A DNA stretch of 64,000 bases, from positions 75,642 through 139,641 of the forward strand of contig BEHX01000005.1 of the NCBI GenBank assembly GCA_002898295.1. Direction: 5' to 3'. The position numbers were made by a program, and so were the translations under genes. Position 1 is the stretch's first letter; every line of letters starts with the position of its first letter. Shown in pieces: positions 48,723 through 64,000 of the stretch. The DNA comes from a bacterium HR21 (lineage in GTDB: Bacteria; Bacteroidota; Ignavibacteria; Kapaibacteriales; HRBIN21). The notes under the pieces were generated by a model. It was not told the DNA's origin and did not search any database. It saw nothing but the letters and a program-made list of their open reading frames with translations.

Positions 48723-49185
48723 CCCGATCACGAACGGGCACGTTGACGTCATCGAACGCGCGGCTCAGCTCTTCGACCACATCATCGTGCTCATCGGCGA
48801 AAACCCCGCCAAAACTCCCCTCTTCAGCGAGGAAGAGCGGCGGCACATGGCCGAGGAAGCGCTGCGCCACGTGCCGAACGTCAGCGTTGAGGTCTACCAC
48901 GGACTTATCGTTGACTACGCCCGACACTGCGGAGCGGTGGCGATCATCCGAGGGCTGCGTGCCATTTCGGACTTCGAGTATGAGCTCCAGCTGGCGCTCA
49001 CAAACCGCCGCCTGGCACCGGAGATCTGCACTCTGTTCCTGGCGCCCAGTGAGCGGTACGTCTACGTCAATTCCAGCATCGTGCGAGAGCTTGTCCGTTT
49101 CGGTCATGTGCCCGCAGAGCTCGTTCCTGAGCCGGTTGCCCGCCGTCTGGAGCAACTCGTCCGCCAGGGACGCACGCCTCACTGA
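48691..49185 (+). CDS. coaD: Phosphopantetheine adenylyltransferase
   Basis: CoaD makes dephospho-CoA from 4'-phosphopantetheine and ATP. The 164-residue protein starts MRRALYPGTFDPITNGHVDVI with the T/HxGH-type nucleotide site (GTFDPITNGH, His17), contains the substrate loop AIIRGLRAISDFEYELQLALTNR, and ends with SSIVRELVRFG near the C-terminus. Length is normal. It overlaps rsmD by 32 bases and converges on mutS with 7 bases of overlap. Confidence 0.97.
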   Translation: MRRALYPGTFDPITNGHVDVIERAAQLFDHIIVLIGENPAKTPLFSEEERRHMAEEALRHVPNVSVEVYHGLIVDYARHCGAVAIIRGLRAISDFEYELQLALTNRRLAPEICTLFLAPSERYVYVNSSIVRELVRFGHVPAELVPEPVARRLEQLVRQGRTPH

Positions 49186-51797
49186 CGAGCCTGCTGGCAG
49201 AGCTCTGCCAGAATCTGCAGTGCCTGCAGCGGGGTAAGAGTGTCGGGATCGAGCTGGCGCAGCCGTTCCCGCAGGGGGTCGTCCACGAGGGTAAACATGC
49301 TCAGCTGGATTGGCTCAGGAGGAGCTGGGGCACGCAAGGCACGGGTTGCAGCGTGCCCGTGCTCTTGCTCCAACGCCGCCATAATCTCCCATGCCCGTTT
49401 CACAACCCACTGCGGCAAGCCCGCCATCTGGGCCACGTGGATTCCAAAGGAATGGTCGGTTCCTCCAGGCAGGATCCGGTGCGTGAAGACCAGCTGCCCA
49501 TCCACTTCGCGAACTTCGGCATGGTAGGCTCGAATGCGTGGGTAGCGCTCAGCCAAGGCGTTGAGCTCATGGTAGTGCGTAGCGAAGAGGGTGCGTGCGC
49601 GGATGACCTCATGGATGTACTCCGCAATTGCCCAAGCGATGGAGAGTCCATCGAAGGTTGCCGTGCCGCGCCCGACTTCGTCGAGCAGGATGAGGCTACG
49701 CCGCGTGGCATTGTGGAGAATTGCTGCTGCCTCGTGCATCTCCACCAGGAAGGTGCTCTCTCCCCCGGTGATGTTGTCGTGCGCCCCGACCCGGGTGAAG
49801 ATGCGGTCCACGACCCCGATCCGTGCCCGCTGTGCCGGGACGAAGCTGCCGATTTGCGCCAGCAATACGATCAGCCCGACCTGCCGGAGGTAACAGGACT
49901 TGCCCGACATGTTCGGACCGGTCAAAAGGCAGAGCTGCTCCCGTTCGGTGTCCAGGTACGTGTCGTTGGGGACGTAGCGCTCCCCAGCAGGCAAGAGGCG
50001 TTCAACAACGGGATGGCGTCCTGCCCGGATCTCGAGAACGTCGGAGTCGTCCACCTCTGGCTCGCAGTAGCCATACTCTGCGGCAACCTCCGCAAGGCTC
50101 TGCAGGCAATCCGTGAGGGCAAGCGCCTGCGCCAGCTGCTGCAGTGTAGGAATGCGCTCCAGGATTGCCTGCCGAAGCTCTCCGAGCAATTCCTGCTCCA
50201 GCGCGGCGATGCGCTCCCCGGCATGGAGCAGTTTGAGTTCCATCTCTTTGAGGACCGGCGTCGTGTACCGCTCGGCATTGGTCAGCGTCTGCTTCCGTTC
50301 GTAGTCCGGTGGGACTTTCGCCCGGTGCGCGTGCGTCACCTCGATGTAGTAGCCGAAGACCGCATTGTAGCCAACTTTGAGCGAAGGAATGCCCGTTCGG
50401 CGGCGTTCACTTTCCTGGTAGTGCTCCAGCCACTCCCTGCTCGACTCCAGCAGCTGCCGCAGCTCATCGAGCTCGGCGGAGAATCCGTGCCGGAAAATTG
50501 CTCCATTCCCGAACCCCGAGGAAGGATTCTCCTGCAATGCCCGGCAGAGCTGCTCTCCGAGCGGCACCGCTTCCTGCAGCAGTTCCTCCCAGGCAATCCC
50601 TGCCAGAACGCCGTGTGCCGGCAGCTGCCGCAGTAGTGCAGCAACCCGCTGGGCACTGAGGATGCTCTGTCCCAGAGCAAGGTACTCCCGCGGCAGTGCT
50701 CGTCCTGTAGCAATGCGGGAGAGCATCCGCTCCAGGTCTCCGACCGATGGGAGGAGCTGACGGAGAGAGTGCCGTTGCGGCGCGTGCTCAACCAATACCC
50801 GAATGGCTGCCAACCGTTCACGGATCGCCTCCGGACGGCGCAGGGGATGGTGGAGCCAGAACTTGAGCAAGCGTCCGCCCATGGGGGTGAGGGTTTTGTC
50901 CAGAATCCGCCATAGGCTCCCGTCTGCCCGTCCGTCGGCAACGGTGGCCAGCAGCTCCAGATTGCGCCGCGTTGCGGCATCCAGCTCCATGTACTCCGAC
51001 GAGTTGTACGAGCGGATGCTGCGGATGTGGTGGGCGTGCTCCTGCTGCGTCTCCCGGATGTAGTGCAGAATAGCTCCTGCCGCTGCAATGCCTTGCCCGA
51101 GGTGGTCGATCCCAAACCCTTTCAAGCTTTCCACCCCGAAGTGACGTTGCAAGAGCTGTCGCGCAAAACTTTCCTCAACGAGCCAGTCCTCCAGCCGCGT
51201 CAGCACCGGACGCCACGCCCAACGGCTGCTCCACTCCTGCACGGTCCGGTAGTCGCGCTTTGCAACCAGCAACTCCGCAGGGGCAAAACCTTCCAACAGA
51301 TCGCTCACGTTCTCAGGTGGCACCTCCATTGTGAAGAACTCTCCCGTTGAGGCATCGGCGAGGGCAACCCCGACGAGCTGCCCCGAACGCACGGGCAATG
51401 CGAGCGCCGCAACATAGCGGCTCTGTTTCGCCTCCAGCAGCTTCTCCGAGAGGGCAACCCCCGGAGTGACAACCTCGACAACGCCTCGACGCACGATACC
51501 CCGAGCGAATTTGGGATCTTCCAGCTGCTCGCAGACCGCAACGCGATACCCCGCCCGGACAAGCTTCGCCAAATAGGTGTCCAGCTGATGGTGGGGAAAG
51601 CCCGCCATCGGGACATCGCCAGCAGCGCCGTTGTTGCGCCGTGTGAGCGCGATCCCGCACACCCGCGCCGTGATGGCGGCATCCTCCTCGAAGGTCTCGT
51701 AGAAATCCCCCAGCCGAAAAAGCACAATGGTGTCCGGATACCGCTGCTTGATCTGGCGATACTGCCGCATCAAGGGTGTCTCTGCCGCCCGTGTCAT
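49179..51797 (-). CDS. mutS: DNA mismatch repair protein MutS
   Basis: MutS recognises base mismatches and small loops and starts repair with MutL. The 872-residue protein has the mismatch-contacting F-x-E in LFRLGDFYETFEEDA, the connector and lever domains, the clamp region (RHGFSAELDELR, SLKVGYNAVFGYYIEVTHAH), Walker A GPNMSGKSCYLRQVG, Walker B region SLILLDEVGRGTATFDG and ATHYHELNALAERYP. It is the MutS1 type. A long antisense frame (49353-50636) on the plus strand is an artefact. The gene is convergent with coaD and divergent from nosZ. Confidence 0.97.
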   Translation of the reverse strand: MTRAAETPLMRQYRQIKQRYPDTIVLFRLGDFYETFEEDAAITARVCGIALTRRNNGAAGDVPMAGFPHHQLDTYLAKLVRAGYRVAVCEQLEDPKFARGIVRRGVVEVVTPGVALSEKLLEAKQSRYVAALALPVRSGQLVGVALADASTGEFFTMEVPPENVSDLLEGFAPAELLVAKRDYRTVQEWSSRWAWRPVLTRLEDWLVEESFARQLLQRHFGVESLKGFGIDHLGQGIAAAGAILHYIRETQQEHAHHIRSIRSYNSSEYMELDAATRRNLELLATVADGRADGSLWRILDKTLTPMGGRLLKFWLHHPLRRPEAIRERLAAIRVLVEHAPQRHSLRQLLPSVGDLERMLSRIATGRALPREYLALGQSILSAQRVAALLRQLPAHGVLAGIAWEELLQEAVPLGEQLCRALQENPSSGFGNGAIFRHGFSAELDELRQLLESSREWLEHYQESERRRTGIPSLKVGYNAVFGYYIEVTHAHRAKVPPDYERKQTLTNAERYTTPVLKEMELKLLHAGERIAALEQELLGELRQAILERIPTLQQLAQALALTDCLQSLAEVAAEYGYCEPEVDDSDVLEIRAGRHPVVERLLPAGERYVPNDTYLDTEREQLCLLTGPNMSGKSCYLRQVGLIVLLAQIGSFVPAQRARIGVVDRIFTRVGAHDNITGGESTFLVEMHEAAAILHNATRRSLILLDEVGRGTATFDGLSIAWAIAEYIHEVIRARTLFATHYHELNALAERYPRIRAYHAEVREVDGQLVFTHRILPGGTDHSFGIHVAQMAGLPQWVVKRAWEIMAALEQEHGHAATRALRAPAPPEPIQLSMFTLVDDPLRERLRQLDPDTLTPLQALQILAELCQQARQ

Positions 51798-51921
51798 TAC
51801 CGGCGCCGCAACCCGGAAGACCGCCGCGCGAAATTACCACGCGCCACCCCCGCACCACCCCTCGCCGGACTGACACATCCCCGAGGATGACATACATCAC
51901 CACCGACACTTACCTCGCTCA

Positions 51922-51952
51922 TTTGCCATCCAAAGTATCCGGTCGAAGTTTG
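51922..51952 (+). promoter_or_regulatory. Candidate nosZ promoter (TTTG-N19-GAAGTTTG)
   Basis: TTTG at 51922-51925 is followed after 19 bases by GAAGTTTG at 51945-51952, one T-to-G change from TAnnTTTG. It lies 42 bases before the nosZ ATG in the 197-base mutS-nosZ gap. No FNR or Crp-type palindrome is visible in this gap. Confidence 0.5.
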
Positions 51953-51994
51953 TGCCAGCGTGAGTGGCTGTCTCACAAGCTGGAGTGCTCTCCC

Positions 51995-53959
51995 ATGACT
52001 ACCCGCACTCTCCTTCGCTCTGCCATGTGGCTGGTGCCTGCCAGCGTACTCGTCGTCATCCTCGCCCTCAGCGGTTGCCCTGGTCCCAAACAGGCGGTGG
52101 CAACGGGGGATGCCGCCTCGCGAGTCTACATCCCACCGGGACAGTACGACGAGTTCTATGGCTTCTTCTCCGGCGGCTTCAGCGGACAGGTCACCGTGTA
52201 TGGTCTACCTAGCGGGCGGCTCTTCAAGATTATCCCGGTCTTCTCCGTCAACCCCGAAAACGGCTATGGCTATACGCCCGAGACCCAACCACTGCTGATG
52301 ACCTCCCACGGCTTTATCCCGTGGGACGATGCACACCACCCCGAGCTCTCGCAAACCGACGGTGTTCCCGACGGACGATGGCTCTTCGTCAATGCGAACA
52401 ATACGCCCCGGGTTGCCCGCATTGACCTGCGCACCTTCGAGACGGTGGAAATCCTGGAGATTCCCAACTCCGCGGGGAATCACTCTTCCCCGTTCGTGAC
52501 GCAGAACACCGAGTACGTCGTCGCCGGGACGCGCTTTAGCGTGCCTATCCCCCAGCAGGATGTGCCCATTCGCGGGGAGAACTTCCGCGGCACACTCAAC
52601 TTCATCAAGGTTGATCCTCAGAGCGGGCGGATGGAGCTGGCTTTCCAGATCCTGGTGCCGGGCTACGATTACGACTTAGCCCACGCTGGCAAAGGTCCCT
52701 CGCACGGCTGGGTCTTCTTCACCTGCTACAACAGCGAGCAGGCGCACACGCTGCTGGAGGTCAATGCCTCAAAGCGCGACAAAGACTTCATTGCTGCCGT
52801 CAACTGGAAGAAAGCTGAGGAATACCTGGCACAGGGCAAATACCATGAGATGACGGCAGACTACTTCCACAACATCTACGATGAACGCAAGCACATGGCG
52901 ACCTCCGAGCGCCTCACCAAAGTCCGTGTCCTCATCCCCTCGGAGTGCCCTGGACTGATCTACTATCTGCCTACCCCCAAGTCCCCCCACGGAGTGGATG
53001 TGGACCCGACGGGCGAATACATCGTCGCCGGAGGAAAGCTGGCGACAGTTATCCCCGTGCACTCCTTCTCCAAAATGCTCAAAGCCATTGAAAATCGGGA
53101 CTTCGACACCGTCATCGACGGCATCCCGGTTCTGAGGTACGATGCCGTCCTTGCCGGCGAGGTCCAAAACCCCGGGCTGGGACCGCTCCACACGGAGTTC
53201 GACGGCAAGGGCTACGCCTACACCTCCTGCTTCGTATCCTCGGAAATCGTCAAGTGGAAGCTGGGGACCTGGGAAGTGGTAGACCGTATCCCGACGTACT
53301 ACAGCATCGGGCACCTCCTGATCCCCGGCGGGGATAGCCGCAAGCCTTGGGGCAAGTACGTCGTTGCTCTCAACAAAATCACCAAGGACCGTTACCTGCC
53401 CACAGGTCCAGAGCTGGTGCAATCAGCGCAGCTTATCGACATCACAGGCGAGAAAATGCGGCTGCTGCTGGACTTCCCCACCCTGGGCGAACCTCATTAC
53501 GCCCAGGCAATCCCGGCCGAAATCCTGATGAAGAACTCGCTCAAAGTCTATCCACTCCAGGAAAATCAGCACCCCTACGCGGTGAAAACGCCGGAGCAAG
53601 CCCGGGTAGAGCGCAAAGGCAACGAGGTCCATGTCTACATGACCGCCCTCCGAAGCCACTTCCGTCCTGATAACATCGAGGGCATTCAGGTGGGGGACAG
53701 AGTATACTTCCACGTCACGAACCTGGAGCAGGATTGGGACATCCCCCACGGCTTCGCTATCCTGGGCGCGAATACTGCGGAAATCCTCATCATGCCAGGA
53801 CAGACTAAGACGCTGGTCTGGGAGCCGAAGAAGCCCGGCGTCTACCCCTTCTACTGTACAGACTTCTGCTCGGCTCTCCACCAGGAGATGCAGGGCTATG
53901 TCCGTGTCTCGCCACGCGGGACAAATGTCCCGCTGACTTACGGCACGGGTCAGGAGTAA
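51995..53959 (+). CDS. nosZ: Nitrous oxide reductase, Sec-type (clade II)
   Basis: NosZ reduces N2O to N2 in the periplasm. The 654-residue protein begins with MTTRTLLRSAMWLVPASVLV, an N-terminus without a twin-arginine motif and with a lipobox (ALSGC, Cys28), which puts it in the Sec-dependent clade II group and suggests lipid anchoring. The beta-propeller carries the CuZ-type His segments (DAHHPELSQTDG, SPHGVDVDPTG, GPLHTEFDG, IGHLLIPGG, EPHYAQAIPA). The cupredoxin domain has DIPHGFAI and the CuA motif CTDFCSALHQEMQGY (C-x3-C-x3-H-x2-M). In-frame codons upstream of 51995 overlap mutS and are rejected. It heads the nos operon. Confidence 0.97.
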   Translation: MTTRTLLRSAMWLVPASVLVVILALSGCPGPKQAVATGDAASRVYIPPGQYDEFYGFFSGGFSGQVTVYGLPSGRLFKIIPVFSVNPENGYGYTPETQPLLMTSHGFIPWDDAHHPELSQTDGVPDGRWLFVNANNTPRVARIDLRTFETVEILEIPNSAGNHSSPFVTQNTEYVVAGTRFSVPIPQQDVPIRGENFRGTLNFIKVDPQSGRMELAFQILVPGYDYDLAHAGKGPSHGWVFFTCYNSEQAHTLLEVNASKRDKDFIAAVNWKKAEEYLAQGKYHEMTADYFHNIYDERKHMATSERLTKVRVLIPSECPGLIYYLPTPKSPHGVDVDPTGEYIVAGGKLATVIPVHSFSKMLKAIENRDFDTVIDGIPVLRYDAVLAGEVQNPGLGPLHTEFDGKGYAYTSCFVSSEIVKWKLGTWEVVDRIPTYYSIGHLLIPGGDSRKPWGKYVVALNKITKDRYLPTGPELVQSAQLIDITGEKMRLLLDFPTLGEPHYAQAIPAEILMKNSLKVYPLQENQHPYAVKTPEQARVERKGNEVHVYMTALRSHFRPDNIEGIQVGDRVYFHVTNLEQDWDIPHGFAILGANTAEILIMPGQTKTLVWEPKKPGVYPFYCTDFCSALHQEMQGYVRVSPRGTNVPLTYGTGQE

Positions 53960-54046: not shown

Positions 54047-54664
54047 ATGCGAGCGCTGCCACGCATACTCACTCTCGGCGCCATCCTCTCCCTCGGCTTG
54101 CTCTTCGTCCTGCCGCTATGGCGCATCACGTTGACAGCACCGCAGTACCCAGAGGGTGTCGTGATGCTGATTTGGCTGAACCGATTGAGCGGACAGCTCG
54201 ACCTCATCAACGGACTGAATCACTACATCGGTATGCGCCCGATCCGGGAGGAAAACTTCCCCGAATTCTCCTTCATGCCCTGGCTCATCGGCGGACTCAT
54301 TCTCCTGGGCATCCTCGCTGTGGTAGTCAACCGCCGGTGGCTCTACGCTACCTGGTTGGCGCTCTTTGCCGCACTCACCATTGTCGGACTGGCGGACTTC
54401 TACCGCTGGGGCTATGAGTATGGACACAATCTCGACCCAAATGCTCCCATCAAAGTCCCGGGGATGGCGTACCAGCCACCTCTGATCGGCTCGAAGCAGC
54501 TTCTGAACTTCACGGCGTACTCCTACCCCGATGCCGGTGGGTGTATCGCCTTCGGTTCGTTCCTGCTGGTTGCTGCAACCTTTACCGGCGAGTGCATTGT
54601 CGCTCGGCGGCGTGGGAAAGCATGCACCGCGCACATAGTCAGGGAAGCTGCTCCTGTGGCATGA
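54047..54664 (+). CDS. Membrane protein of the clade II nos cluster (NosB-like)
   Basis: The 205-residue protein has four likely transmembrane helices: ILTLGAILSLGLLFVLPLW, WLIGGLILLGILAVVV, WLYATWLALFAALTIVGLADF and GGCIAFGSFLLVAATFTGEC. A periplasmic loop (EFSFMP, IGMRPIREENFPE) separates the first two. Clade II nos operons often carry an uncharacterised membrane protein gene directly after nosZ, named nosB in Wolinella; position and topology match, but I cannot confirm homology. It might pass electrons or help NosZ mature. Its stop overlaps the nosL start by 4 bases. Confidence 0.7.
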   Translation: MRALPRILTLGAILSLGLLFVLPLWRITLTAPQYPEGVVMLIWLNRLSGQLDLINGLNHYIGMRPIREENFPEFSFMPWLIGGLILLGILAVVVNRRWLYATWLALFAALTIVGLADFYRWGYEYGHNLDPNAPIKVPGMAYQPPLIGSKQLLNFTAYSYPDAGGCIAFGSFLLVAATFTGECIVARRRGKACTAHIVREAAPVA

Positions 54665-55143
54665 GGAGCGCCAGACTCATCCTCGTACTCAGCACCACGG
54701 CAGGGCTTCTCTCCTGCCAGCCCAGACCCGAACCTCTCCGCTTCGGCGAGGAAATCTGTGCCTACTGCCAGATGGGTATCTCCGACCCGCGCTTTGGCGC
54801 CGAGCTGGTCACCCGTCAAGGACGGGTCATCAAGTTTGACGCCATCGAGTGCATGGTCGAATTCGAACACTCCGGGACCGTCTCTGCCGAGCGCATCCAC
54901 TCCCGCTGGGTCATTGACTTCAGCGCGCCAGGGCAGCTCATCCGCGTAGAGGAGGCTGAGTTCGTCTCCACACCCGAGGTTCGCAGTCCCATGGGATTCA
55001 ACGTCTACGCCGTCTCCCGCGGGGCATACGAGTCTGACCCTACGCTGCCACGCGGGCAGAAGCTGAGCTGGGCAGAAGTCCAGGAGCTCGTCCGAAGGCA
55101 GTGGCGGGAAGGACCTCCGCTCGGCGCGCCGCAACAGCACTAA
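54661..55143 (+). CDS. nosL: Copper chaperone NosL
   Basis: NosL binds Cu(I) and delivers it for CuZ assembly. The 160-residue lipoprotein has a signal MRSARLILVLSTTAGLLSCQ with lipid Cys19, and the family's CAYCQMGI (Cys33, Cys36, Met38), followed by a conserved D in KFDAIECMVEFE and SPMGF near the end, the copper-site motifs of the family. ATG 54661 overlaps the upstream stop. It lies between the membrane protein and nosD. Confidence 0.93.
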   Translation: MRSARLILVLSTTAGLLSCQPRPEPLRFGEEICAYCQMGISDPRFGAELVTRQGRVIKFDAIECMVEFEHSGTVSAERIHSRWVIDFSAPGQLIRVEEAEFVSTPEVRSPMGFNVYAVSRGAYESDPTLPRGQKLSWAEVQELVRRQWREGPPLGAPQQH

Positions 55144-55165: not shown

Positions 55166-56404
55166 ATGGAGCTACGATTCCTCGGCATCGGGCTCTTCCT
55201 GAGCGTGCTAAGCCTTCCGGGCTGGGCGCGGCTCCTTACGGTTGGAACCGACGGGAGCTTCGCGACACTGCGAGAAGCCCTTGCCCGAGCACATCCCGGG
55301 GATACCGTTCGCCTCCAGCCGGGCATCTACCGGGAGCGCGAGCTGGAGATCCAGGTGCCGCTCCTGCTGGAGGGACTCCCCGGCGCCGTGCTCGACGCGG
55401 AAGGAACAGGCGAAATCCTGCGCATCCACGCCTCCGGAACCACCGTCCGGGGACTCATCCTGCGCCGCTCCGGAATAAGCTTCCTGCGGGATAACGCCGC
55501 AATTCGCGTTGAGAACGCCACAGATTGCCGCATCGAAAGGAATCAGGTGCAGGAATGCTTCTTCGGCATCTACCTGGCAAACGCTGCGCGCTGTACTGTC
55601 ACCTCCAACTCCATCCTCGGCAATGCCCGGCGAGAGGCGACCTCCGGCAATGGCATCCACCTGTGGCACTGCCGCGACATTCTCATCCGCGCAAACTCCA
55701 TTGCCCGCCACCGGGATGGCATCTACTTTGAGTTCGTCCGGCACGCAACGGTTGACTCCAACCACTCAGAACACAACCTGCGGTACGGACTCCACTTCAT
55801 GTTCTCCGACAGCTGCCTCTATCGGGCAAACCTCTTCCGGCATAACGGTGCCGGCGTTGCCGTCATGTACTCCCGCACAATCCTGATGGAGCAGAACCAC
55901 TTCGAACACAACTGGGGCGCTGCCTCTTTCGGACTCTTGCTGAAAGACATCGCACGCAGCCGGATCCGCCGCAATGTCTTCCTGAGCAACACCGTCGCCC
56001 TCTACATGGAGGGCTGCTCCGCCACGCTCGTGGACAGCAACCGCTTCCTCTCCAACGGCTGGGCACTCCGCTTACTGGCAAGCTCGGTGGACAATACCCT
56101 GACGGCGAACAGCTTTGTGGCAAATACCATTGACGTTGCCACCAATAGCACTACCTCTGCCAACACGTTCCGGCACAACTACTGGAGTCGCTACCGCGGC
56201 TACGACCTCGACCGCAATGGGCATGGCGATGTTCCGTTCTACCCGGTTAGCGCCTTTGCCCTGGTCAGCGAGCGTTACCCTGCCGTCTTGGTGCTCTTGC
56301 GGAGCTTTCTGGTCGAACTCTGGGACCTTGCCGAGCGCGTCTTCCCCGTCTTGACACCGAAAGCACTCGTCGATCCTGCCCCGCTCATGGAGCCGCCGGG
56401 ATGA
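55166..56404 (+). CDS. nosD: Periplasmic NosD, right-handed beta-helix copper-maturation protein
   Basis: NosD is the periplasmic component of the NosDFY complex needed to build the CuZ centre. The 412-residue protein has a signal peptide (FLGIGLFLSVLSLPGWA) and a CASH/NosD parallel beta-helix of about 12 turns (TDCRIERNQVQECFFGIYLANA, SCLYRANLFRHNGAGVAVMY) ending in FRHNYWSRYRGYDLDRNGHGDVPFYPV, typical of NosD. The stop overlaps nosF by 4 bases. Confidence 0.95.
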   Translation: MELRFLGIGLFLSVLSLPGWARLLTVGTDGSFATLREALARAHPGDTVRLQPGIYRERELEIQVPLLLEGLPGAVLDAEGTGEILRIHASGTTVRGLILRRSGISFLRDNAAIRVENATDCRIERNQVQECFFGIYLANAARCTVTSNSILGNARREATSGNGIHLWHCRDILIRANSIARHRDGIYFEFVRHATVDSNHSEHNLRYGLHFMFSDSCLYRANLFRHNGAGVAVMYSRTILMEQNHFEHNWGAASFGLLLKDIARSRIRRNVFLSNTVALYMEGCSATLVDSNRFLSNGWALRLLASSVDNTLTANSFVANTIDVATNSTTSANTFRHNYWSRYRGYDLDRNGHGDVPFYPVSAFALVSERYPAVLVLLRSFLVELWDLAERVFPVLTPKALVDPAPLMEPPG

Positions 56405-57105
56405 TTGAGCTTACCAACGTGACAAAGCGCTTCGGCGCAACCGAAGTCCTCCGCGGCATTTCTCTGAGCATCGCACCGGGCAGTGCGCTTGCCATCCTCG
56501 GACCCAATGCGTCGGGGAAAACAACGCTCCTGAAATGCATGCTGGGGCTGACCCGCCCGGACAGCGGCGAGATTCGCATCAATGGCACTCCGATTGGCGC
56601 CTCCGCTGAATACCGCCGCTGGATTGGCTACATGCCGCAACACCCGCACTTCCCCGAAAATCTGCGGGCTGCCGAAGTCATTGAGCTGGTCAAGCAGATC
56701 CGGGGGCTCTCTGCTCCTGTGGAAGCACCCTACATTGAGCAGTTCCGGCTCACCAGCGAGCTGCACAAGCCCATCCGCGCTCTGTCCGGCGGGACACGGC
56801 AGAAGCTCAGCGCAGTCCTGGCGCTGATGAGTTCCCCGACCATCCTCATCCTGGATGAGCCCACAGCAGGTTTAGACCCGCTGGCAGCACATACCCTCAA
56901 GACAGAGCTCCAGCACTGCCGGCAGCGAGGCTGTACACTCGTGCTCACCACGCACGTGCTCAACGACATCCCCGAGCTCGTCACCGAAGTTGTCTTCCTG
57001 CTGGAAGGGCGCATTGTCTTCCGGGAAAGTGTTCCCCAACTCTTCGCCGAGAGCAACAGCCGTCACTTCAGTGAAGCCCTCGTCCACCGGCTCCAGCGGT
57101 CATGA
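56401..57105 (+). CDS. nosF: NosF, ABC transporter ATPase for NosZ maturation
   Basis: NosF is the cytoplasmic ATPase of NosDFY. The 234-residue protein has Walker A GPNASGKTT (about 34-42), the Q-loop YMPQHPHFPENLRA, the ABC signature LSGGTRQKLS, Walker B TILILDEPTAGLDP and the H-loop VLTTHVL. All catalytic residues are present. It overlaps nosD and nosY by 4 bases each (ATGA), so translation is coupled. Confidence 0.96.
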   Translation: MIELTNVTKRFGATEVLRGISLSIAPGSALAILGPNASGKTTLLKCMLGLTRPDSGEIRINGTPIGASAEYRRWIGYMPQHPHFPENLRAAEVIELVKQIRGLSAPVEAPYIEQFRLTSELHKPIRALSGGTRQKLSAVLALMSSPTILILDEPTAGLDPLAAHTLKTELQHCRQRGCTLVLTTHVLNDIPELVTEVVFLLEGRIVFRESVPQLFAESNSRHFSEALVHRLQRS

Positions 57106-57887
57106 GAGGTACACTCTGGGTCCTCTGGGAATTCCAGCTCCGGAACGCTCTCCGCAGCCGCTGGGTGCTCCTCTACGGAGGCGGCTTGCTGCTCTTGACG
57201 GCGCTTCTGTTTCGCTTCGGAGGCACAGCGGAACAGGTTGTAGTCAGTCTCCTCAATGTCGTGCTGCTCCTGGTACCGCTGGTTGCCCTGCTCTACGGCG
57301 TGCTTGGAATCAGTTCAGCACGGGAATTCCTCGAACTCATGCTCGCCCAGCCTCTGCAGCGCCAGGAGCTGTTCTGGGGAACGTTCGGCGGAATGGCACT
57401 GCCACTCCTCTTGCTGCCGCCCTTGAGCATTGGGATACCGTGGCTTGTGTTCGCTGGCGGGCGGTGGGAGCTTCTCCTGACCCTGTCGCTGGGTAGCATG
57501 GTGCTGAGCCTCATCGGGGCTGCTGCCGGGGTTGCCTTCGCCCTCCGCTGGGAAGAGCGCCTCTACGCCATTGGGGTCGCTTTCGGCTTCTGGTTTGCCC
57601 TGACGATTCTCTACGACGGCTTCATCCTCTGGGCAGGCATCGCCTTGCGGGATTACCCCATTGAACACGGCTTGCTGCTTGCCTTGGTGCTCAATCCGGT
57701 GGACCTGGTACGCGTTGCCACCCTGTTGCAGCTCGATGCGGCGGCACTCTTGGGCTATACTGGTGCCGCGCTCGAGCGTTTCGCCGGGAGCACGCTGGGG
57801 ATTCTCCTCGCGGCTGGTGCACTCGCACTCTGGTGTGTCCTGCCACTGTGGCTTGCCCTTCGCGGCTTCCTGCGGAAGGACTTCTGA
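57102..57887 (+). CDS. nosY: NosY, membrane permease of the NosDFY complex
   Basis: NosY spans the inner membrane and couples NosF to NosD. The 261-residue protein has six predicted helices, for example WVLLYGGGLLLLTALLFRFG, VVVSLLNVVLLLVPLVALL and LGILLAAGALALWCVLPLWL. The amphipathic FLELMLAQPLQRQELFWGTFGG is typical of ABC-2-type permeases of this family. It closes the nos operon; a T-rich stretch and then the next gene's promoter follow. Confidence 0.94.
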   Translation: MRGTLWVLWEFQLRNALRSRWVLLYGGGLLLLTALLFRFGGTAEQVVVSLLNVVLLLVPLVALLYGVLGISSAREFLELMLAQPLQRQELFWGTFGGMALPLLLLPPLSIGIPWLVFAGGRWELLLTLSLGSMVLSLIGAAAGVAFALRWEERLYAIGVAFGFWFALTILYDGFILWAGIALRDYPIEHGLLLALVLNPVDLVRVATLLQLDAAALLGYTGAALERFAGSTLGILLAAGALALWCVLPLWLALRGFLRKDF

Positions 57888-57959
57888 AGCCCGGGACACG
57901 CAGCTTCCCCCTGTGGGGAGCCGAGAGCACGCACACCTGCGGCTGCCTGCTGTGTCAGC

Positions 57960-57976
57960 TTTTTTTTTTTTTTTTT
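57960..57976 (+). repeat. Homopolymeric T tract (T17) inside a promoter spacer
   Basis: Seventeen consecutive T residues, the longest run in the window, in a roughly 60% GC background. The tract ends in the first T of the TAACTTTG box at 57976-57983. Slippage would change the -33/-7 distance. It may also serve as a terminator tail for the nos operon, but no strong stem precedes it directly. Confidence 0.9.
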
Positions 57977-57983
57977 AACTTTG
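57976..57983 (+). promoter_or_regulatory. Bacteroidetes-type -7 box (TAACTTTG) downstream of a T17 tract
   Basis: TAACTTTG matches TAnnTTTG exactly and ends 31 bases before the ATG at 58015, the spacing seen at 23874 and 62050. A TGTG at 57951-57954 is a possible weak -33 element, 21 bases before the box; losing two T would bring it to 19. Confidence 0.6.
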
Positions 57984-58014
57984 CCTCGGTTTCAGAACTG
58001 CGGGAGAGCCGCCT

Positions 58015-61000
58015 ATGCTGAGGCACTGTCTTGCCTTCCTGTGTGTTGCTCCACTCCTTCTGGCACAGCCACTTGTGCGCATCGAGTTTCCCCACGACGG
58101 GGAGGAAGAGGTCCCTCTGCTGGTCCCGGTTGTGCTCACCACGCGGTATCCCGTCCTGGAGACACTCCTTGTTACACGGGCACCACTGCCAGACAGCCTG
58201 CAGGGAACCAGCGTCCTCCCTTCCGTTGTGCTCCTGCCGGAGCCTCTTGCTGACACAGCTTTCCGCCCTCTCTGGGGGCGGATAGCTCTGGCGGGCACTC
58301 TCCGGCGTATCAGCGATACCGTCCTGCACTTCACGCCTGACACCGGCGCCCTCGAGTACGGTCGCCGGTATGCTGTGTGGGTGCTCGGAGTTGCCATGGT
58401 CCGCGACTCTGCTGGACAACGGGACACGCTGCGGGTCTCTGCTGGACCGGTGCGTTTTACCACTGTCCGTCCGCCCCACCATGTGGTGTGGACTTCTCTG
58501 ACGGCGCGTTCCTCCACGCTGTGGTGCACGGATACCGTGTGCCTGCAGCTCAATCGTCCGTTCCCAGCCGCCCTGGCCGACAGTCTGGTGCAGCTGCTGC
58601 GCCTTCAGGGCATCAGCAGCACGGAGCTTCCGCGCTCGCTCTACCGTGCCTGGCGGTCGGCAGAGGATAGTTCGCGGCTCTGTGTTGCCTTCTCTGGGCT
58701 TCCGCCTGGGGGCTATGCACTGCTTGTGCAGCTGCAGCGGCTGACCGGGGACACAAGCTCCTGGAGCTTGTTTCCCTTCGTCATTCCAGAGCGGGCATTC
58801 TTCCGGTTGCGGGTGACCCGCGCCGACGGAGGCGATACACTGGTGCTGCAATCACGGCTTGCACCTGTGCTGCCACCAGGGAAACGTCTGGGACGCGCCT
58901 TGGGACAGGAACTCCGACTGGAAGCCCCAGCCTTCGCGGACACCTTCTGCTTCCGGCGCTGGCTCCTGGTCTCTGAAGACATTGCCGTGGTGGTGGATAC
59001 GCCGTTGTTGCGCCTTCGGATAGACTCCTGCCCACAGCTGCGAGAGTGGGAGCTGATTGCCGAATATGCCCTGGTTGACAAAGACACCGTGCGTCTGGAG
59101 CCGGGCTGCCTTATCGGGCAGGATGAAAGGGTCTACTACGACCGTGTGGACGTCTACGGCTATGCTGATTCGCTGGACATGTTCACCTACACCGTCTGGA
59201 AGCTCCCTTGGGCGCATCTGCGGATTGCCGCCTGGGTTAGTGACACCAGCAGAGGGTACTACCGCACAGTGCTCTGGCGCGGCAACGCTCCTGGGTATGG
59301 AGAAGTCCCGGGGCGCTGGCTGCAGTACTATCCCGCTGCCGACTGCCAGCCCGGACGCCTGTGGCACTTCTTCCCCTGCTTCGACCTCCTCCAGTCCTGC
59401 CCACCGCCTTTCACAGTGTGCGTGCGCTACATCCAGGAACCACCAGCCGAGCTGCCTGGACTGTCGTCCTCGTTCCTCCCTCCCTTCGACACCTGTGGGG
59501 TCATTGAGTGGTCCAGCCCTTTGGGATGTCCCGTTTTTCAAAACCGCTGTCGCACCAGCTACTATGTAGGCTTGGGAGATACAGTAATCGTAGCAGCATA
59601 TGCATACCCCTGCACTATCTTGGACACGGTGCCTCGCCCCACTGACTGCTGGGAATTCGTCGCATGGGAAGAAAGCAGTCGTTCCGGCAGAATCCGGCAT
59701 ATTCTCTCGCCACCACTATGTGGCTTCCGCGACACAACTCGAGTAAAGGATTGCGAAATGGAGATTCTCTTCCACGTGCGTCCGCACTTGGACACGCTAT
59801 GGGTGGAGCTGCGGGCGGAAGACTGGAGCACCATTCGGGATGCATATGAGCAGAAGTTTCTCGGGGTTGAGTTGACACCGGAGCCGCTTGTTGACATTCC
59901 GCTCGTGCAGGTGAGTGATTCGCTCATTCGCCTGGGCTACCTCTACCGCTGTGGGGATACTGTGCGGGTGGCTCCGATTGCCTTGTCCGGGAGTGGGCTG
60001 GCGGTTGGCTACTGGAACATCTACGTCGGGCGCTGGAAGCGGATTGAACCACCGCCGGATAGCACTGTATGGGTCCTCGTAACTCCGGGTGGGGATACTG
60101 TACAACACATCTTCTGCTCCAACTTCCGCCTGGTAGAGGTTGAGCTTCTCCGCCCCGATGGGAGCTTCGAACGCATCCCAAGTGACGAATTTGCCAGCTC
60201 GTACGAGCCCACCCTGGGCATGGTTGCCCTCGGTGGGCATTCCCGGACAACACCTTTACACGACCGTACCACCCAGATTCTCTTCCGCTTCAACGTCCCT
60301 GTGGACAGCTCTAGCCTTCGCCAGGGTCTTCTGCTGCGCGATGCCTACCCGGACTCCGTGGTCTTTCGCATCTCTGGACGCCGCTACAGTTTTCGCCTCA
60401 CCCGCCCACAGGATGGGGAGTTCACAACTGTCTACAACTGCCGCTTCGGTCCGGAAGGGAACGTGACGCTGACCGAGGGCGGGAAGGCGGTCATTGTCAA
60501 GCTCGTGGACTCCACGGGACTGTTTGCTGCCCACTATCTGCCGATTCAGATAAGCCTGCGGGAGGAGCTGCGGAGTCGGAGTGGGCAGAAGCTCGCCAAT
60601 CCCAGGACGGTCTACCGCCGTACGCAGTTGCCTTCCTTTGAGCTACGGCTCGACGAGCTCAGACTCTACGGCTGTTGGGAAGGCTGGCTCATGGGCGATC
60701 AGGAGGTTGTACTCTTCCACACTTTCGCTGCCGGGCAGGACAGCCTGCGCTCGACTCGCGCCGAGGCAGTGCGTCTGCCCAGCAACGACGCTGCGTACGA
60801 CATGCCGTGTGGGGGTTCTTCCGTCTCGATCGGGAGAATTCTCGCAGTGGAAAGCCACCTCAGTGAACGGCAGCTCTTCGCAGTGGGCTGGGATGCGTGG
60901 GAGGAGGATGATGATTGGCTCAAAAGCCTGGCGCAAGCCGTCGAGAACGAACTCGTGAGAGTTTTGACAGCAGTTTTGAACCGTTTTGTGCTCGATAGCC

Positions 61001-61296
61001 TCCTGCGCAGCATCGATCTTGGACCCTTGCTAGCGAGGACGATTGCCAACTTGCTCCAACAAACCACTCAGGAGAACGACCACATTTGCACGGGCAGCGA
61101 AGTCTTTCGGGCAGAGAACTGGTGGCATGGGCGGCTGGCGTACGAGAATCCGGCGAAGGGCTTTGAGCTCTACTGGTGGGACCCTGCTGGCTCGCGGGGC
61201 TACTTCTATGCCCGGCATCGGATAGCAGTCTCTCCCTATCCGTTCCCACCAGGATTTCCAGCAGCCCGAGTGTACTACTCTGTGCTGCTCCGGTAA
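58015..61296 (+). CDS. Very large secreted protein with Ig-like (Big_5-type) N-terminus
   Basis: The 1093-residue protein begins with a signal peptide (MLRHCLAFLCVAPLLLAQ). Residues about 20-145 resemble an SbsA/Big_5 Ig-like domain of surface proteins (HDGEEEVPLLVPVVLTT, DTVLHFTPDTGALEYGRRY). Later a second such segment (LHDRTTQILFRFNVPVDSSSLRQG) is visible near 750. Cys pairs occur in the middle third (SCPQLREWELIAEY, CRTSYYVGLGD, CEMEILFHVRP). A C-terminal region around 960-1010 is helical (LAQAVENELVRVLTAVL), unlike the rest. No typical T9SS C-terminal domain is seen; the end is YYSVLLR. The function is unknown. The promoter carries a T17 tract. Confidence 0.75.
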   Translation: MLRHCLAFLCVAPLLLAQPLVRIEFPHDGEEEVPLLVPVVLTTRYPVLETLLVTRAPLPDSLQGTSVLPSVVLLPEPLADTAFRPLWGRIALAGTLRRISDTVLHFTPDTGALEYGRRYAVWVLGVAMVRDSAGQRDTLRVSAGPVRFTTVRPPHHVVWTSLTARSSTLWCTDTVCLQLNRPFPAALADSLVQLLRLQGISSTELPRSLYRAWRSAEDSSRLCVAFSGLPPGGYALLVQLQRLTGDTSSWSLFPFVIPERAFFRLRVTRADGGDTLVLQSRLAPVLPPGKRLGRALGQELRLEAPAFADTFCFRRWLLVSEDIAVVVDTPLLRLRIDSCPQLREWELIAEYALVDKDTVRLEPGCLIGQDERVYYDRVDVYGYADSLDMFTYTVWKLPWAHLRIAAWVSDTSRGYYRTVLWRGNAPGYGEVPGRWLQYYPAADCQPGRLWHFFPCFDLLQSCPPPFTVCVRYIQEPPAELPGLSSSFLPPFDTCGVIEWSSPLGCPVFQNRCRTSYYVGLGDTVIVAAYAYPCTILDTVPRPTDCWEFVAWEESSRSGRIRHILSPPLCGFRDTTRVKDCEMEILFHVRPHLDTLWVELRAEDWSTIRDAYEQKFLGVELTPEPLVDIPLVQVSDSLIRLGYLYRCGDTVRVAPIALSGSGLAVGYWNIYVGRWKRIEPPPDSTVWVLVTPGGDTVQHIFCSNFRLVEVELLRPDGSFERIPSDEFASSYEPTLGMVALGGHSRTTPLHDRTTQILFRFNVPVDSSSLRQGLLLRDAYPDSVVFRISGRRYSFRLTRPQDGEFTTVYNCRFGPEGNVTLTEGGKAVIVKLVDSTGLFAAHYLPIQISLREELRSRSGQKLANPRTVYRRTQLPSFELRLDELRLYGCWEGWLMGDQEVVLFHTFAAGQDSLRSTRAEAVRLPSNDAAYDMPCGGSSVSIGRILAVESHLSERQLFAVGWDAWEEDDDWLKSLAQAVENELVRVLTAVLNRFVLDSLLRSIDLGPLLARTIANLLQQTTQENDHICTGSEVFRAENWWHGRLAYENPAKGFELYWWDPAGSRGYFYARHRIAVSPYPFPPGFPAARVYYSVLLR

Positions 61297-61336
61297 GCCG
61301 AACATACGGCATGTCTATTCTGCGGGTGTCCCAACC

Positions 61337-61963
61337 ATGACAATCGCTGCTTTCCTGCTGACCGTGTGTGCTGCAGCACTGCCTCTCAGGGCACAATGTG
61401 CCGATGGGGAGGTCTTTCCCTGCGGTGGAGAGCGTGTGCAGGCTGGTGGTCTCGTGCAGATTCGCTGGGCAGCTCAGCCTGTGGCAGACCAGCGCGTTGA
61501 CCTCTGGCTCTGGGATGGGGAGTCGGGGGTGTACCGTGAAATTGCCCGCGGTTTCCCTGGTGCTGCCGGGAAGTATTCCTGGAGTGTCCCGGAAGGGCTC
61601 CGCGGGAAGCTCTTCCGCATTCGGCTTCAGGCAGGGCAGCGCTCGTGGATGAGCCCGAGCTACTTCTGGATTGTCGGCGCAGCAGAGGTTCCTCCTGCAC
61701 CACCGCCATTCCCATTGCCGAGTAGCGTCTCCATCCGTCCCAACCCGAGCACGGGGGAAGTGCTGCTGGAATGGGGGCTCCGTGAAGCCCGGCTGGTCTC
61801 GCTGTGGAACGTTCTGGGACAGCGCGTCAAGACGGTCGGTCCGGGGAAGCTGCTCTCACCCCTTCTCCTTCAGATGCCTGAGCTGGCAAGCGGGCTGTAT
61901 CGGGTGGAAGTGGAGTTCACCACCGCAGAGAAAGCCATCGGCTGGCTTGTCCTCCTCCATTGA
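61337..61963 (+). CDS. Small T9SS-exported protein
   Basis: The 208-residue protein starts with a signal peptide (MTIAAFLLTVCAAALPLRAQC). It has one beta-sandwich domain (about 25-115, VDLWLWDGESGVYREIARGFPG), a Pro linker (VPPAPPPFPLP) and a complete T9SS type A sorting domain: VSIRPNPSTGEVLLEW, VSLWNVLGQRVKTV, LASGLYRVEVEF. The Cys pair CADGEVFPC sits at the mature N-terminus. The gene begins 40 bases after the preceding gene and could share its transcript. Function unknown; an adhesion or decoration module is possible. Confidence 0.85.
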   Translation: MTIAAFLLTVCAAALPLRAQCADGEVFPCGGERVQAGGLVQIRWAAQPVADQRVDLWLWDGESGVYREIARGFPGAAGKYSWSVPEGLRGKLFRIRLQAGQRSWMSPSYFWIVGAAEVPPAPPPFPLPSSVSIRPNPSTGEVLLEWGLREARLVSLWNVLGQRVKTVGPGKLLSPLLLQMPELASGLYRVEVEFTTAEKAIGWLVLLH

Positions 61964-62017
61964 GTGCTGGCTCCGGGTGCGGATTGCCGAGTACCGGAGC
62001 TGGCGAGGGTAAAGGCA

Positions 62018-62032
62018 GTGCACATGGTGCAC
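62018..62032. repeat. GTGCAC-N3-GTGCAC repeat before the metalloprotease promoter
   Basis: Two copies of the palindromic hexamer GTGCAC are separated by ATG, 17 bases upstream of the TAAGTTTG box. This could be a regulator binding site or a chance pair. Confidence 0.35.
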
Positions 62033-62049
62033 GGGAGGTGGATTTTACG

Positions 62050-62057
62050 TAAGTTTG
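62050..62057 (+). promoter_or_regulatory. Bacteroidetes-type -7 box (TAAGTTTG) for the metalloprotease gene
   Basis: TAAGTTTG matches TAnnTTTG and ends 30 bases before the ATG at 62088; GGGAGGA precedes the ATG as ribosome site. The GTG 20 bases earlier is a possible weak -33 element (one mismatch from TTG). Confidence 0.6.
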
Positions 62058-62087
62058 TATTAGCCCTTTTCCAGAGGGAGGAAGCCC

Positions 62088-63182
62088 ATGGGTAGTAGAA
62101 GCATTCTGCTATGGCTTTTGGTAGTGGGGGGGGTAGTAGGCTGGGGTCAAAGGAGCAATTCCTGTGACAGTGGTGATTGCCGTCCTGGTGCCCGCTGCCG
62201 CGGGGATTTGCGAGTCCCTCTTCACTACTGCCGTGGACAATCATGGCAGCGATGTGTGCACGTTGATTCCATTCGGAGAGCATTGTTGCCGTTGCCAATC
62301 TGCTTGGAGCTCGACTCGGCATCTCTACCGCCCGCAGAGCTGCGGACTGTGTACTTTCCTGTTGACCCAGCTAATCCGGAGGGTGAGAGGGTTTTGGTCT
62401 TTTCCCTGGATAGTGTTTGGCAAGATCTCTGCTGTGCCCAGCGCAGCTGGGCATGTATATGTGGGAAGCAGGATTTACCCTGCGCCTGCAAGGTGAAAGT
62501 CCGGTTTATAACCGACTCTTCCGTTTTTCGCCCAGGTTCCCGCGCTGCAGCCAGCACATGGGGTGGCATGTGTGATAGCTGTCGCCCAGATTTCGACATA
62601 CTTCTTAATGTTACTCGGTGGTTTATAACGAGCTATCCGAGCTACCGGTCAAATTCAACCAGCAAAGTACACCGTTTTTTCGTCAATCGATCTCTGATAG
62701 AGAATTATCGTCGGGTTCGGTATGACCCGGATTCGGGCTATGTTGCATACGACTTGTGCCTTATCCTCATTCACGAGCTGGGGCACGTCTATGGGCTGAA
62801 CCATATGGACTTATGCGATAGTTCTTATACTGGTGGTGTCATGCATCATGCAGGTCCGGCATATTGGTGGAACATCAGCGAAGACGAGCGGTGTGCCTTT
62901 GCGAAACTCTACTGTCCAGAAATGGTTGGTATTATCGAAGATAGGCGCGAATACCTCGTGGGTGGATTCAATAAGGTGTGCTTTTCGCCTTCAAGTTTTC
63001 TTCCAATAATTGTGCGGGTCTATACCCTCGAAGGGCGACTTGTTTACTCTCGTTTTCTGCCTCCCCATAGGGCATACATCTGTGAAGATCTTTCCACCGA
63101 AGGACTTGCTAGAGGTGTCTATGTAGTTCAGATTACCGAGAATAACAATGTTCGTTGTATATTACTTTATTTGATTCCTTAA
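62088..63182 (+). CDS. T9SS-exported matrixin-type zinc metalloprotease
   Basis: The 364-residue protein has a signal peptide (MGSRSILLWLLVVGGVVGWG), a Cys-rich propeptide-like region (CRGDLRVPLHYCRG, CICGKQDLPCACKV) and the catalytic zinc motif HELGHVYGLNH (HExxHxxGxxH) near residue 228, with the Met-turn GVMHHAG. This is metzincin (matrixin-like) architecture. The C-terminus (VRVYTLEGRLVYSRFLPP, LARGVYVVQI) is a T9SS sorting domain. The 3' half is AT-rich (about 28% GC over the last 60 bases) compared with flanking genes, which may mean transfer. A run of eight G lies in the signal-peptide codons. The substrate is unknown. Confidence 0.87.
   Translation: MGSRSILLWLLVVGGVVGWGQRSNSCDSGDCRPGARCRGDLRVPLHYCRGQSWQRCVHVDSIRRALLPLPICLELDSASLPPAELRTVYFPVDPANPEGERVLVFSLDSVWQDLCCAQRSWACICGKQDLPCACKVKVRFITDSSVFRPGSRAAASTWGGMCDSCRPDFDILLNVTRWFITSYPSYRSNSTSKVHRFFVNRSLIENYRRVRYDPDSGYVAYDLCLILIHELGHVYGLNHMDLCDSSYTGGVMHHAGPAYWWNISEDERCAFAKLYCPEMVGIIEDRREYLVGGFNKVCFSPSSFLPIIVRVYTLEGRLVYSRFLPPHRAYICEDLSTEGLARGVYVVQITENNNVRCILLYLIP
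62126..62133 (+). repeat. G8 tract in the signal-peptide codons of the metalloprotease
   Basis: Eight consecutive G encode part of VVGGVVGW. A gain or loss of one G would shift the frame early in the gene, so the tract could switch expression. No variation can be seen from a single sequence. Confidence 0.7.
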
Positions 63183-63206
63183 GTCTCTCAAGCAGGAGGT
63201 GGAGCG

Positions 63207-64000
63207 ATGAAGCCGATGCGTATTGCTTTCGCACTCAGCCTGTTGCTGTACAGTGAGGGCTTCGCCCAGCGGTGGTGGTATACCGCGCCTCGTCCTTCTC
63301 GTGTACCGCTGTCGGTCTACATGCCCTACGACGTGCTGCTCGGTTACGTTGCTCTGGACTCGGTCTGGAGAGGACCCCTTTACTGGGACCCTGCGGACAG
63401 CTGCTGGAGGACGAATTTCGAGCTGGTCAAACAGGTGCAGAACTTCCTGCGCCGGCAGACGTGGAACGACACCCTGCGCAAGATTGTGCGCTGTCTTTTC
63501 GCCATGGTGGACTACAACCCTATTTTGTTCTCCACCACGCTCGTGGGACTCGGCGTCCCAGAGCATCCCTACTGCTCGGCCGATGCCATCTCGCTCACGA
63601 CTTACCACGACGATGTTCTCCGCTACGCGCTTATTGAGGCGAACCGAGGCAATCACGCAGCGTATGCTCGCGATATGATGCTGTTAGGGGCGTCGTACGT
63701 TGCCCACATCAAGATTGTCGACACGGTCCACCTTCCCCGGAGGAAGGAACTGATTGCCACAGCGGAGGTGCTGGATCTCCTCAAAGGGCAGGTCCTGCCT
63801 CCGTGTAAGCCAGAGTGGACACATAGACCGACGGCAACCCGTCCTTGGCAGGAGGGTCCTGTCCTTGCCCAGTCACGGATGTGGTTCATGGCGGACCAGA
63901 TAGAAAGGGAATCGCAGCGACTATCCTCCTCCAACCCCTGCCTGCAGTTCCGGGTCTTTCCGATATCCTTGGAGGGACAGGAGGATGTGTTGTTGGCACG
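63207..64000 (+). CDS. Secreted hypothetical protein, 3' end beyond the window
   Basis: The frame from ATG 63207 stays open to the last base, 264 codons, so the gene continues past the window. GGAGGTGGAG precedes the start as ribosome site. A signal peptide is visible (MRIAFALSLLLYSEGFAQ), followed by an aromatic-rich mature part (RWWYTAPRPSRVPLSVYMPY, YWDPADSCWRTNFELVKQV) and a helical segment (RYALIEANRGNHAAYARDMM). I recognise no domain. It follows the metalloprotease by 24 bases and is probably in the same transcript. Function unknown. Confidence 0.75.
   Translation, partial: MKPMRIAFALSLLLYSEGFAQRWWYTAPRPSRVPLSVYMPYDVLLGYVALDSVWRGPLYWDPADSCWRTNFELVKQVQNFLRRQTWNDTLRKIVRCLFAMVDYNPILFSTTLVGLGVPEHPYCSADAISLTTYHDDVLRYALIEANRGNHAAYARDMMLLGASYVAHIKIVDTVHLPRRKELIATAEVLDLLKGQVLPPCKPEWTHRPTATRPWQEGPVLAQSRMWFMADQIERESQRLSSSNPCLQFRVFPISLEGQEDVLLA

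Follow-up and report, generated by a model that had tools for sequence, protein, structure and literature searches.

A T17 tract joined to a promoter box of a species-specific secreted-protein gene in a Kapabacteria genome: a candidate for graded tuning of expression by tract length

The nos cluster and the adjoining island

The window, i.e. the whole 64-kb stretch of DNA that was analyzed, carries a nos cluster whose NosZ is of clade II (Sec-dependent), and a mutS gene, the presence of which had been noted in the first-pass annotation and was verified by a profile match. Downstream of nosY lies an island of about 6.4 kb, which ends at a convergent gene (64282-65895, minus strand) and contains genes for proteins of 1093, 208, 364, and 373 residues (Table 1). 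In the congeners G001, G003, and G005, nosY is followed by the convergent gene within about 100 nt and the island is absent; as judged from this gene order, the island is species-specific. A hot-spring habitat is suggested by the name of a congener isolate (SKYG35) and by a bin name (GXS).

Two further observations were made on the arrangement of the island genes. In the congener G002, a homologue of the 373-aa gene also adjoins the convergent gene, and a 364/373 pair sits elsewhere. In addition, a direct repeat of 36 nt (92% identical) is found at 61968-62003 and 64290-64325 (L036:12290-12325). The second pair of coordinates is on the window scale. The repeat matches the 3' end of the 373-aa gene, with one copy just before the 364-aa gene, which suggests a remnant of tandem duplication or recombination.

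The first island gene was earlier described as encoding a secreted protein of 1093 residues, and this description agrees with the open reading frame and with its signal-peptide-like N-terminus. Sequence searches of Pfam, NCBIfam, and PDB gave no relative of the protein, and no close relatives were found in GTDB contigs. At E <= 1e-3, a match was obtained in 9 of 41 relatives, own genome included; the others were partial matches at 24-31% identity. Within the order, partial matches of 24-29% identity occurred in as few as four or as many as seven genomes, according to the cut-off applied. The upstream regions of six distant homologues contained no T-run longer than 5, and a TAnnTTTG box was present in one of them. 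The 1093-aa protein was not found in the five congeners, and the promoter described below could consequently not be compared with an orthologous one. The 1093-aa protein is, on the searches made, a species-specific and putatively secreted protein.

Table 1. Positions of the genes and sequence elements discussed in the text. Numbers refer to the window unless a genome handle is given (G000, own genome).
Feature	Position	Strand	Remark
mutS	49179-51797	-	TIGR01070 mutS1, above cut-off; adjoins nosZ on the opposite strand
nosZ	51776-53959		nos cluster
nosL	54541-55143		nos cluster
nosD	55166-56404		nos cluster
nosF	56401-57105		nos cluster
nosY	57102-57887	+	last gene of the nos cluster
Secreted-protein island	57888-64000	+	runs past the window to about 64330; T17 at its start
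Hairpin (GCTG...CAGC)	57942-57959	+	sole hairpin abutting T17; -3.8 kcal/mol, not terminator-like
TGTG, proposed -33-like element	57951-57954	+	21 nt before the box; no support
T17 tract	57960-57976	+	about -28 to -12, counted from the predicted transcription start
TAACTTTG, -7 box (TAnnTTTG class)	57976-57983	+	promoter of the 1093-aa gene, by motif enrichment
Predicted 5' leader	57988-58014	+	start about 5 nt past the box, by likeness to F. johnsoniae (PMC6847099)
1093-aa protein gene	58015-61296	+	ORF of 1093 codons, signal-peptide-like N-terminus
364-aa protein gene	62088-63182	+	secreted, matrixin-like (HELGH); own TAAGTTTG box at 62050-62057
G8 tract	62126-62133	+	signal-peptide codons of the 364-aa gene; in frame
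G12 tract	G000:C2:132082-132093 (L077:12082)		DUF3078-like gene
G12 tract	G000:C2:296567-296578 (L213:1568)		paralogous DUF3078-like gene, same position

The TAnnTTTG box, the T17 tract, and the promoters of the genus

The promoter statistics draw on 0.86 Mb of the organism's own genome and, for each of three congeners, on about 0.4 Mb; gene starts were taken from simple ORF calls and not from a gene finder. The results showed that TA..TTTG is the most enriched motif of the form XX..XXXX upstream of ORFs, both in the own genome (7.1-fold, 34 sites in 0.86 Mb) and in the congener G003 (8.9-fold in 0.4 Mb). The distances from box to start codon cluster at 28-35 nt, and the gap of 31 bases between TAACTTTG and the ATG of the 1093-aa gene is typical. 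The likeness of TAACTTTG to the Bacteroidetes -7 box, which had been claimed from the letters, is in line with the 7- to 9-fold enrichment of this class upstream of ORFs. By these statistics, TAACTTTG, which occurs once in the window, is a genuine promoter element of the organism, and it provides the -7 box expected of a TAnnTTTG (sigma-ABfr-type) promoter. The predicted leader contains a purine-rich GGGAG before the ATG. A sigma-70 promoter scan returned nothing relevant, and an RNA family search at the site gave only a chance-level match far below the gathering score.

We confirmed by reading the sequence that, as annotated, 17 T run directly into this box 31 bases before the ATG; the last T of the tract is the first base of TAACTTTG. 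The tract, being fused to a box whose spacing from the start codon is the usual one, thus appears to lie inside a promoter. The sequence evidence supports this placement of T17, and the region is predicted to have promoter activity.

The tract is an outlier in the genome. Within the window, no other T-run is longer than 6, and the second-longest homopolymer, i.e. the longest run apart from T17, is a G8. In the whole genome (1.83 Mb in 17 contigs, 62% G+C), T17 is alone among T/A runs of at least 9, and six others of 7-8 were found. At the run-extension rate measured in the window, which is about 0.19 per base, chance would yield about 2e-6 runs of this kind per genome. In the five congeners, the longest T/A runs were 11, 10, and 9 in three genomes and at most 8 in the other two. 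T17 therefore has both the slip-prone length and the outlier status that characterize homopolymer contingency loci.

To describe the promoters of the genus, we pooled 106 TAnnTTTG promoters from the own genome, G001, G003, and G004, leaving out the T17 promoter. No -33 element was detectable in this set: TTTG was present at a spacer of 17-23 in 2 of the 106 promoters and in none of the 34 from the own genome, and TTG occurred 14 times at this spacer, yet also 14 times at 29-35 and 14 times at 44-50. The -33 TTTG is absent from the T17 promoter as it is from 104 of the 106 others. In Bacteroides fragilis a -33 TTTG has been described, and the main motif of B. thetaiotaomicron includes one (PMC7366714). 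F. johnsoniae promoters show no clear -33; their AT-rich motifs are located at -18 and -28 (PMC6847099). Since F. johnsoniae also lacks an evident -33, the missing element is compatible with membership of the TAnnTTTG class.

Upstream of the box, the pooled promoters are rich in T. T-runs of at least 3 were found in the adjoining 12 nt in 31 of the 106, whereas a control stretch had them in 4 (p = 2e-7), and the longest had 6 T. A T/A patch lies at -16 to -18 (p from 4e-6 to 6e-5), with 63% A+T at -18 (p = 4e-6) and a preference for T at -16 (p = 9e-6). A weaker T/A peak at -28 (55%, p = 0.003 uncorrected) fails correction for the 45 positions tested. T17, which reaches from about -28 to -13, covers both positions, -18 and -28, at which Bacteroidota promoters are rich in T/A. 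The base preceding the box (position -1) is G or C in 94 and T in 4 of the 106 promoters; it is T in the T17 promoter, which may weaken it. The T17 promoter shares the -7 box with the TAnnTTTG promoters of F. johnsoniae and Bacteroides (PMC6847099, PMC7366714), and the genus resembles F. johnsoniae in having T/A-rich patches at -18 and -28 and no clear -33. As compared with both, the promoters of the genus have T-runs of up to 6, T17 excepted.

Proposed graded tuning by tract length and the alternatives

We propose, with a probability of about one half, that the promoter has T17 as its upstream half and that the length of the tract tunes expression of the 1093-aa gene in a graded, rheostat-like way. 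A short T-run is common just upstream of TAnnTTTG boxes in the genus; the tract would be such a run expanded to an extreme length, and a run of such length would be expected to gain and lose bases by slippage, which is plausible here. As there is no gap between tract and box, gaining or losing one to five T would spare both the box and the patch at -16 to -18 and would shift only the upstream edge, i.e. the -28 region and the DNA further up. Promoter strength would then be tuned by degrees and not shut off. With no -33 element that could be displaced, the effect is likelier to be graded than to be an on/off switch. Both the graded effect and a benefit of T17 length are what we infer from this analysis. 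Tracts of comparable form occur across the class. In 391 class genomes, T10 or longer was fused to ANNTTTG 54 times (own excluded) as compared with 25 times for the reversed pattern (p = 7e-4), and within the order the counts were 24 and 8 (p = 0.0035). When 30 of the loci were read, many had an ATG 24-40 nt downstream, and the genes concerned included those of secreted-looking proteins, e.g. a T15 before a gene for a 292-aa protein (L153). By these counts, the fusion of a T-tract to the box recurs as a promoter form. Such boxes also precede housekeeping-looking genes (gatB-like and pyrB-like by our own reading of the sequences), and a tract of this kind is thus no sign of phase variation in itself.

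Three known systems resemble the proposed one in part. In Helicobacter pylori sabA, T-tract length gives a multiphasic, rheostat-like output with a roughly 10-bp spacing (PMC4081817). As in T17, a T-tract of similar length (T5-T18 tested there) lies beside a core promoter element of a gene for a surface or secreted protein, and length is predicted to act on promoter geometry; however, the sabA tract adjoins the -35 and shifts UP-like A-boxes, whereas T17 abuts the -7 box of a class without -33. In the vlp genes of Mycoplasma hyorhinis, as described in PMC10502178, a poly-A homopolymer is likewise located inside surface-protein gene promoters, but on/off switching has been shown and each gene of the family has its tract, whereas T17 is a single candidate tract. 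In Neisseria meningitidis nspA, the length of a promoter poly-A sets the level of an outer-membrane protein, though only A5/A6 alleles are described, phase variation was not found, and the promoter belongs to another sigma-factor class (PMC6389960).

It is also conceivable, though we consider it unlikely, that T17 is a neutral and recent expansion of a T-run in an ordinary promoter, so that its length varies with little effect on expression and no selected function. Short T-runs are normal at this position and could expand by slippage, which the box and the -18 patch would survive. The housekeeping-looking genes that follow similar boxes of T10 or longer in the class also speak for it. Against neutrality, a rise from runs of at most 8 to one of 17 T would be hard to keep at 62% G+C without selection or a very recent origin, and the island holds a second tract-bearing gene.

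Alternatively, the nos operon could end in an intrinsic terminator whose U-tract is T17 and runs by chance into the next promoter. It is located 72 nt past the nosY stop codon and on the right strand, and long T-runs in the genus are usually terminators: five of the six other T7-T8 runs of the own genome are preceded by hairpins of -18 to -31 kcal/mol, and the T11 of G003 and the T10 of G002 by hairpins of -17 and -15 kcal/mol, respectively. No stable G+C-rich hairpin stands directly before T17, however. The value of the one abutting hairpin is equalled or bettered at 51% of 300 random positions, the fold of 57885-57978 is no better than that of shuffled sequences (z -0.87), and no T-run follows nosY in the congeners. 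With its hairpin at the background median, the terminator was rejected as an improbable explanation.

The first-pass annotation had itself suggested an on/off switch, in which slippage changes the distance between a -33-like TGTG and the -7 box. The TGTG does lie within the 17-23 range of spacers, and a -33 TTTG exists in the Bacteroides species mentioned above (PMC7366714). Nevertheless, TGTG differs from TTTG, and the pooled promoters, in which TTTG was rare (0 of 34 own, 2 of 106 in all) and TTG showed no excess at this spacer, gave no ground for regarding it as a -33 element; it was rejected as such. As no -33 is detectable in the genus, a change of spacer length has no second promoter element to act on, and the proposed switch is very improbable. 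Least probable of all is an assembly artefact in which the true tract is shorter or of another sequence: the length was read from one metagenome-type assembly and homopolymers this long are error-prone, but the tract lies mid-contig (at 133.6 kb of 144.8 kb) between unique flanks and is shorter than one short read.

Poly-G tracts in other surface-protein genes

The search for G+C homopolymers covered runs of 8 or more. The G8 of the window falls within the signal-peptide codons of the gene for the 364-aa protein, and in silico the gain or loss of one or two bases cut the protein to 15-26 residues. The G002 homologue of this gene has a G10 at the same place (G002:C2:281527-281536; L051:9528-9537), which is out of frame with the rest of the gene and would read through if two bases shorter or one longer. 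On this sequence evidence, the G8/G10 is a strong candidate for translational phase variation.

Two G12 tracts were found at the same position in two paralogous outer-membrane-type genes of the own genome, which we call DUF3078-like from weak Pfam matches below the cut-off. The paralogues are 84% identical over the aligned part; one is in frame (294 aa) and the other is frameshifted. Their G002 homologue has a G11 and is frameshifted as well (G002:C7:63011-63021; L215:1512). The three longest homopolymers found in the own genome (T17, G12, and G12), together with the G8, thus all belong to genes for secreted or membrane proteins. Homopolymer assembly errors are possible; the positions shared by paralogues and homologues argue for real tracts.

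The genus thus plausibly has contingency loci. A wider reading, which we put forward tentatively, is that this Kapabacteria genus uses homopolymer contingency loci on secreted and outer-membrane proteins, with poly-G tracts that would switch the reading frame and T17 as a rheostat acting via contacts at -18 and -28. T17 would then replace the entire upstream half of a TAnnTTTG promoter without -33. A review of phase variation in Bacteroidota presents it via DNA inversion and not simple repeats (PMC11868660), and among the papers searched there was none joining 'Kapabacteria' with 'phase variation'. Should the length of T17 vary and set expression, the tract would represent a promoter-tract rheostat in a class without -33, and natural length variants would make the role of the Bacteroidota -18/-28 T/A patches directly testable. 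Together with the poly-G tracts, this would extend slippage-based phase variation to a lineage that is uncultured and apparently free-living.

Another secreted-type gene of G002 carries a G10 in its signal-peptide region, in frame as assembled (G002:C11:57000-57009; L216:1501).
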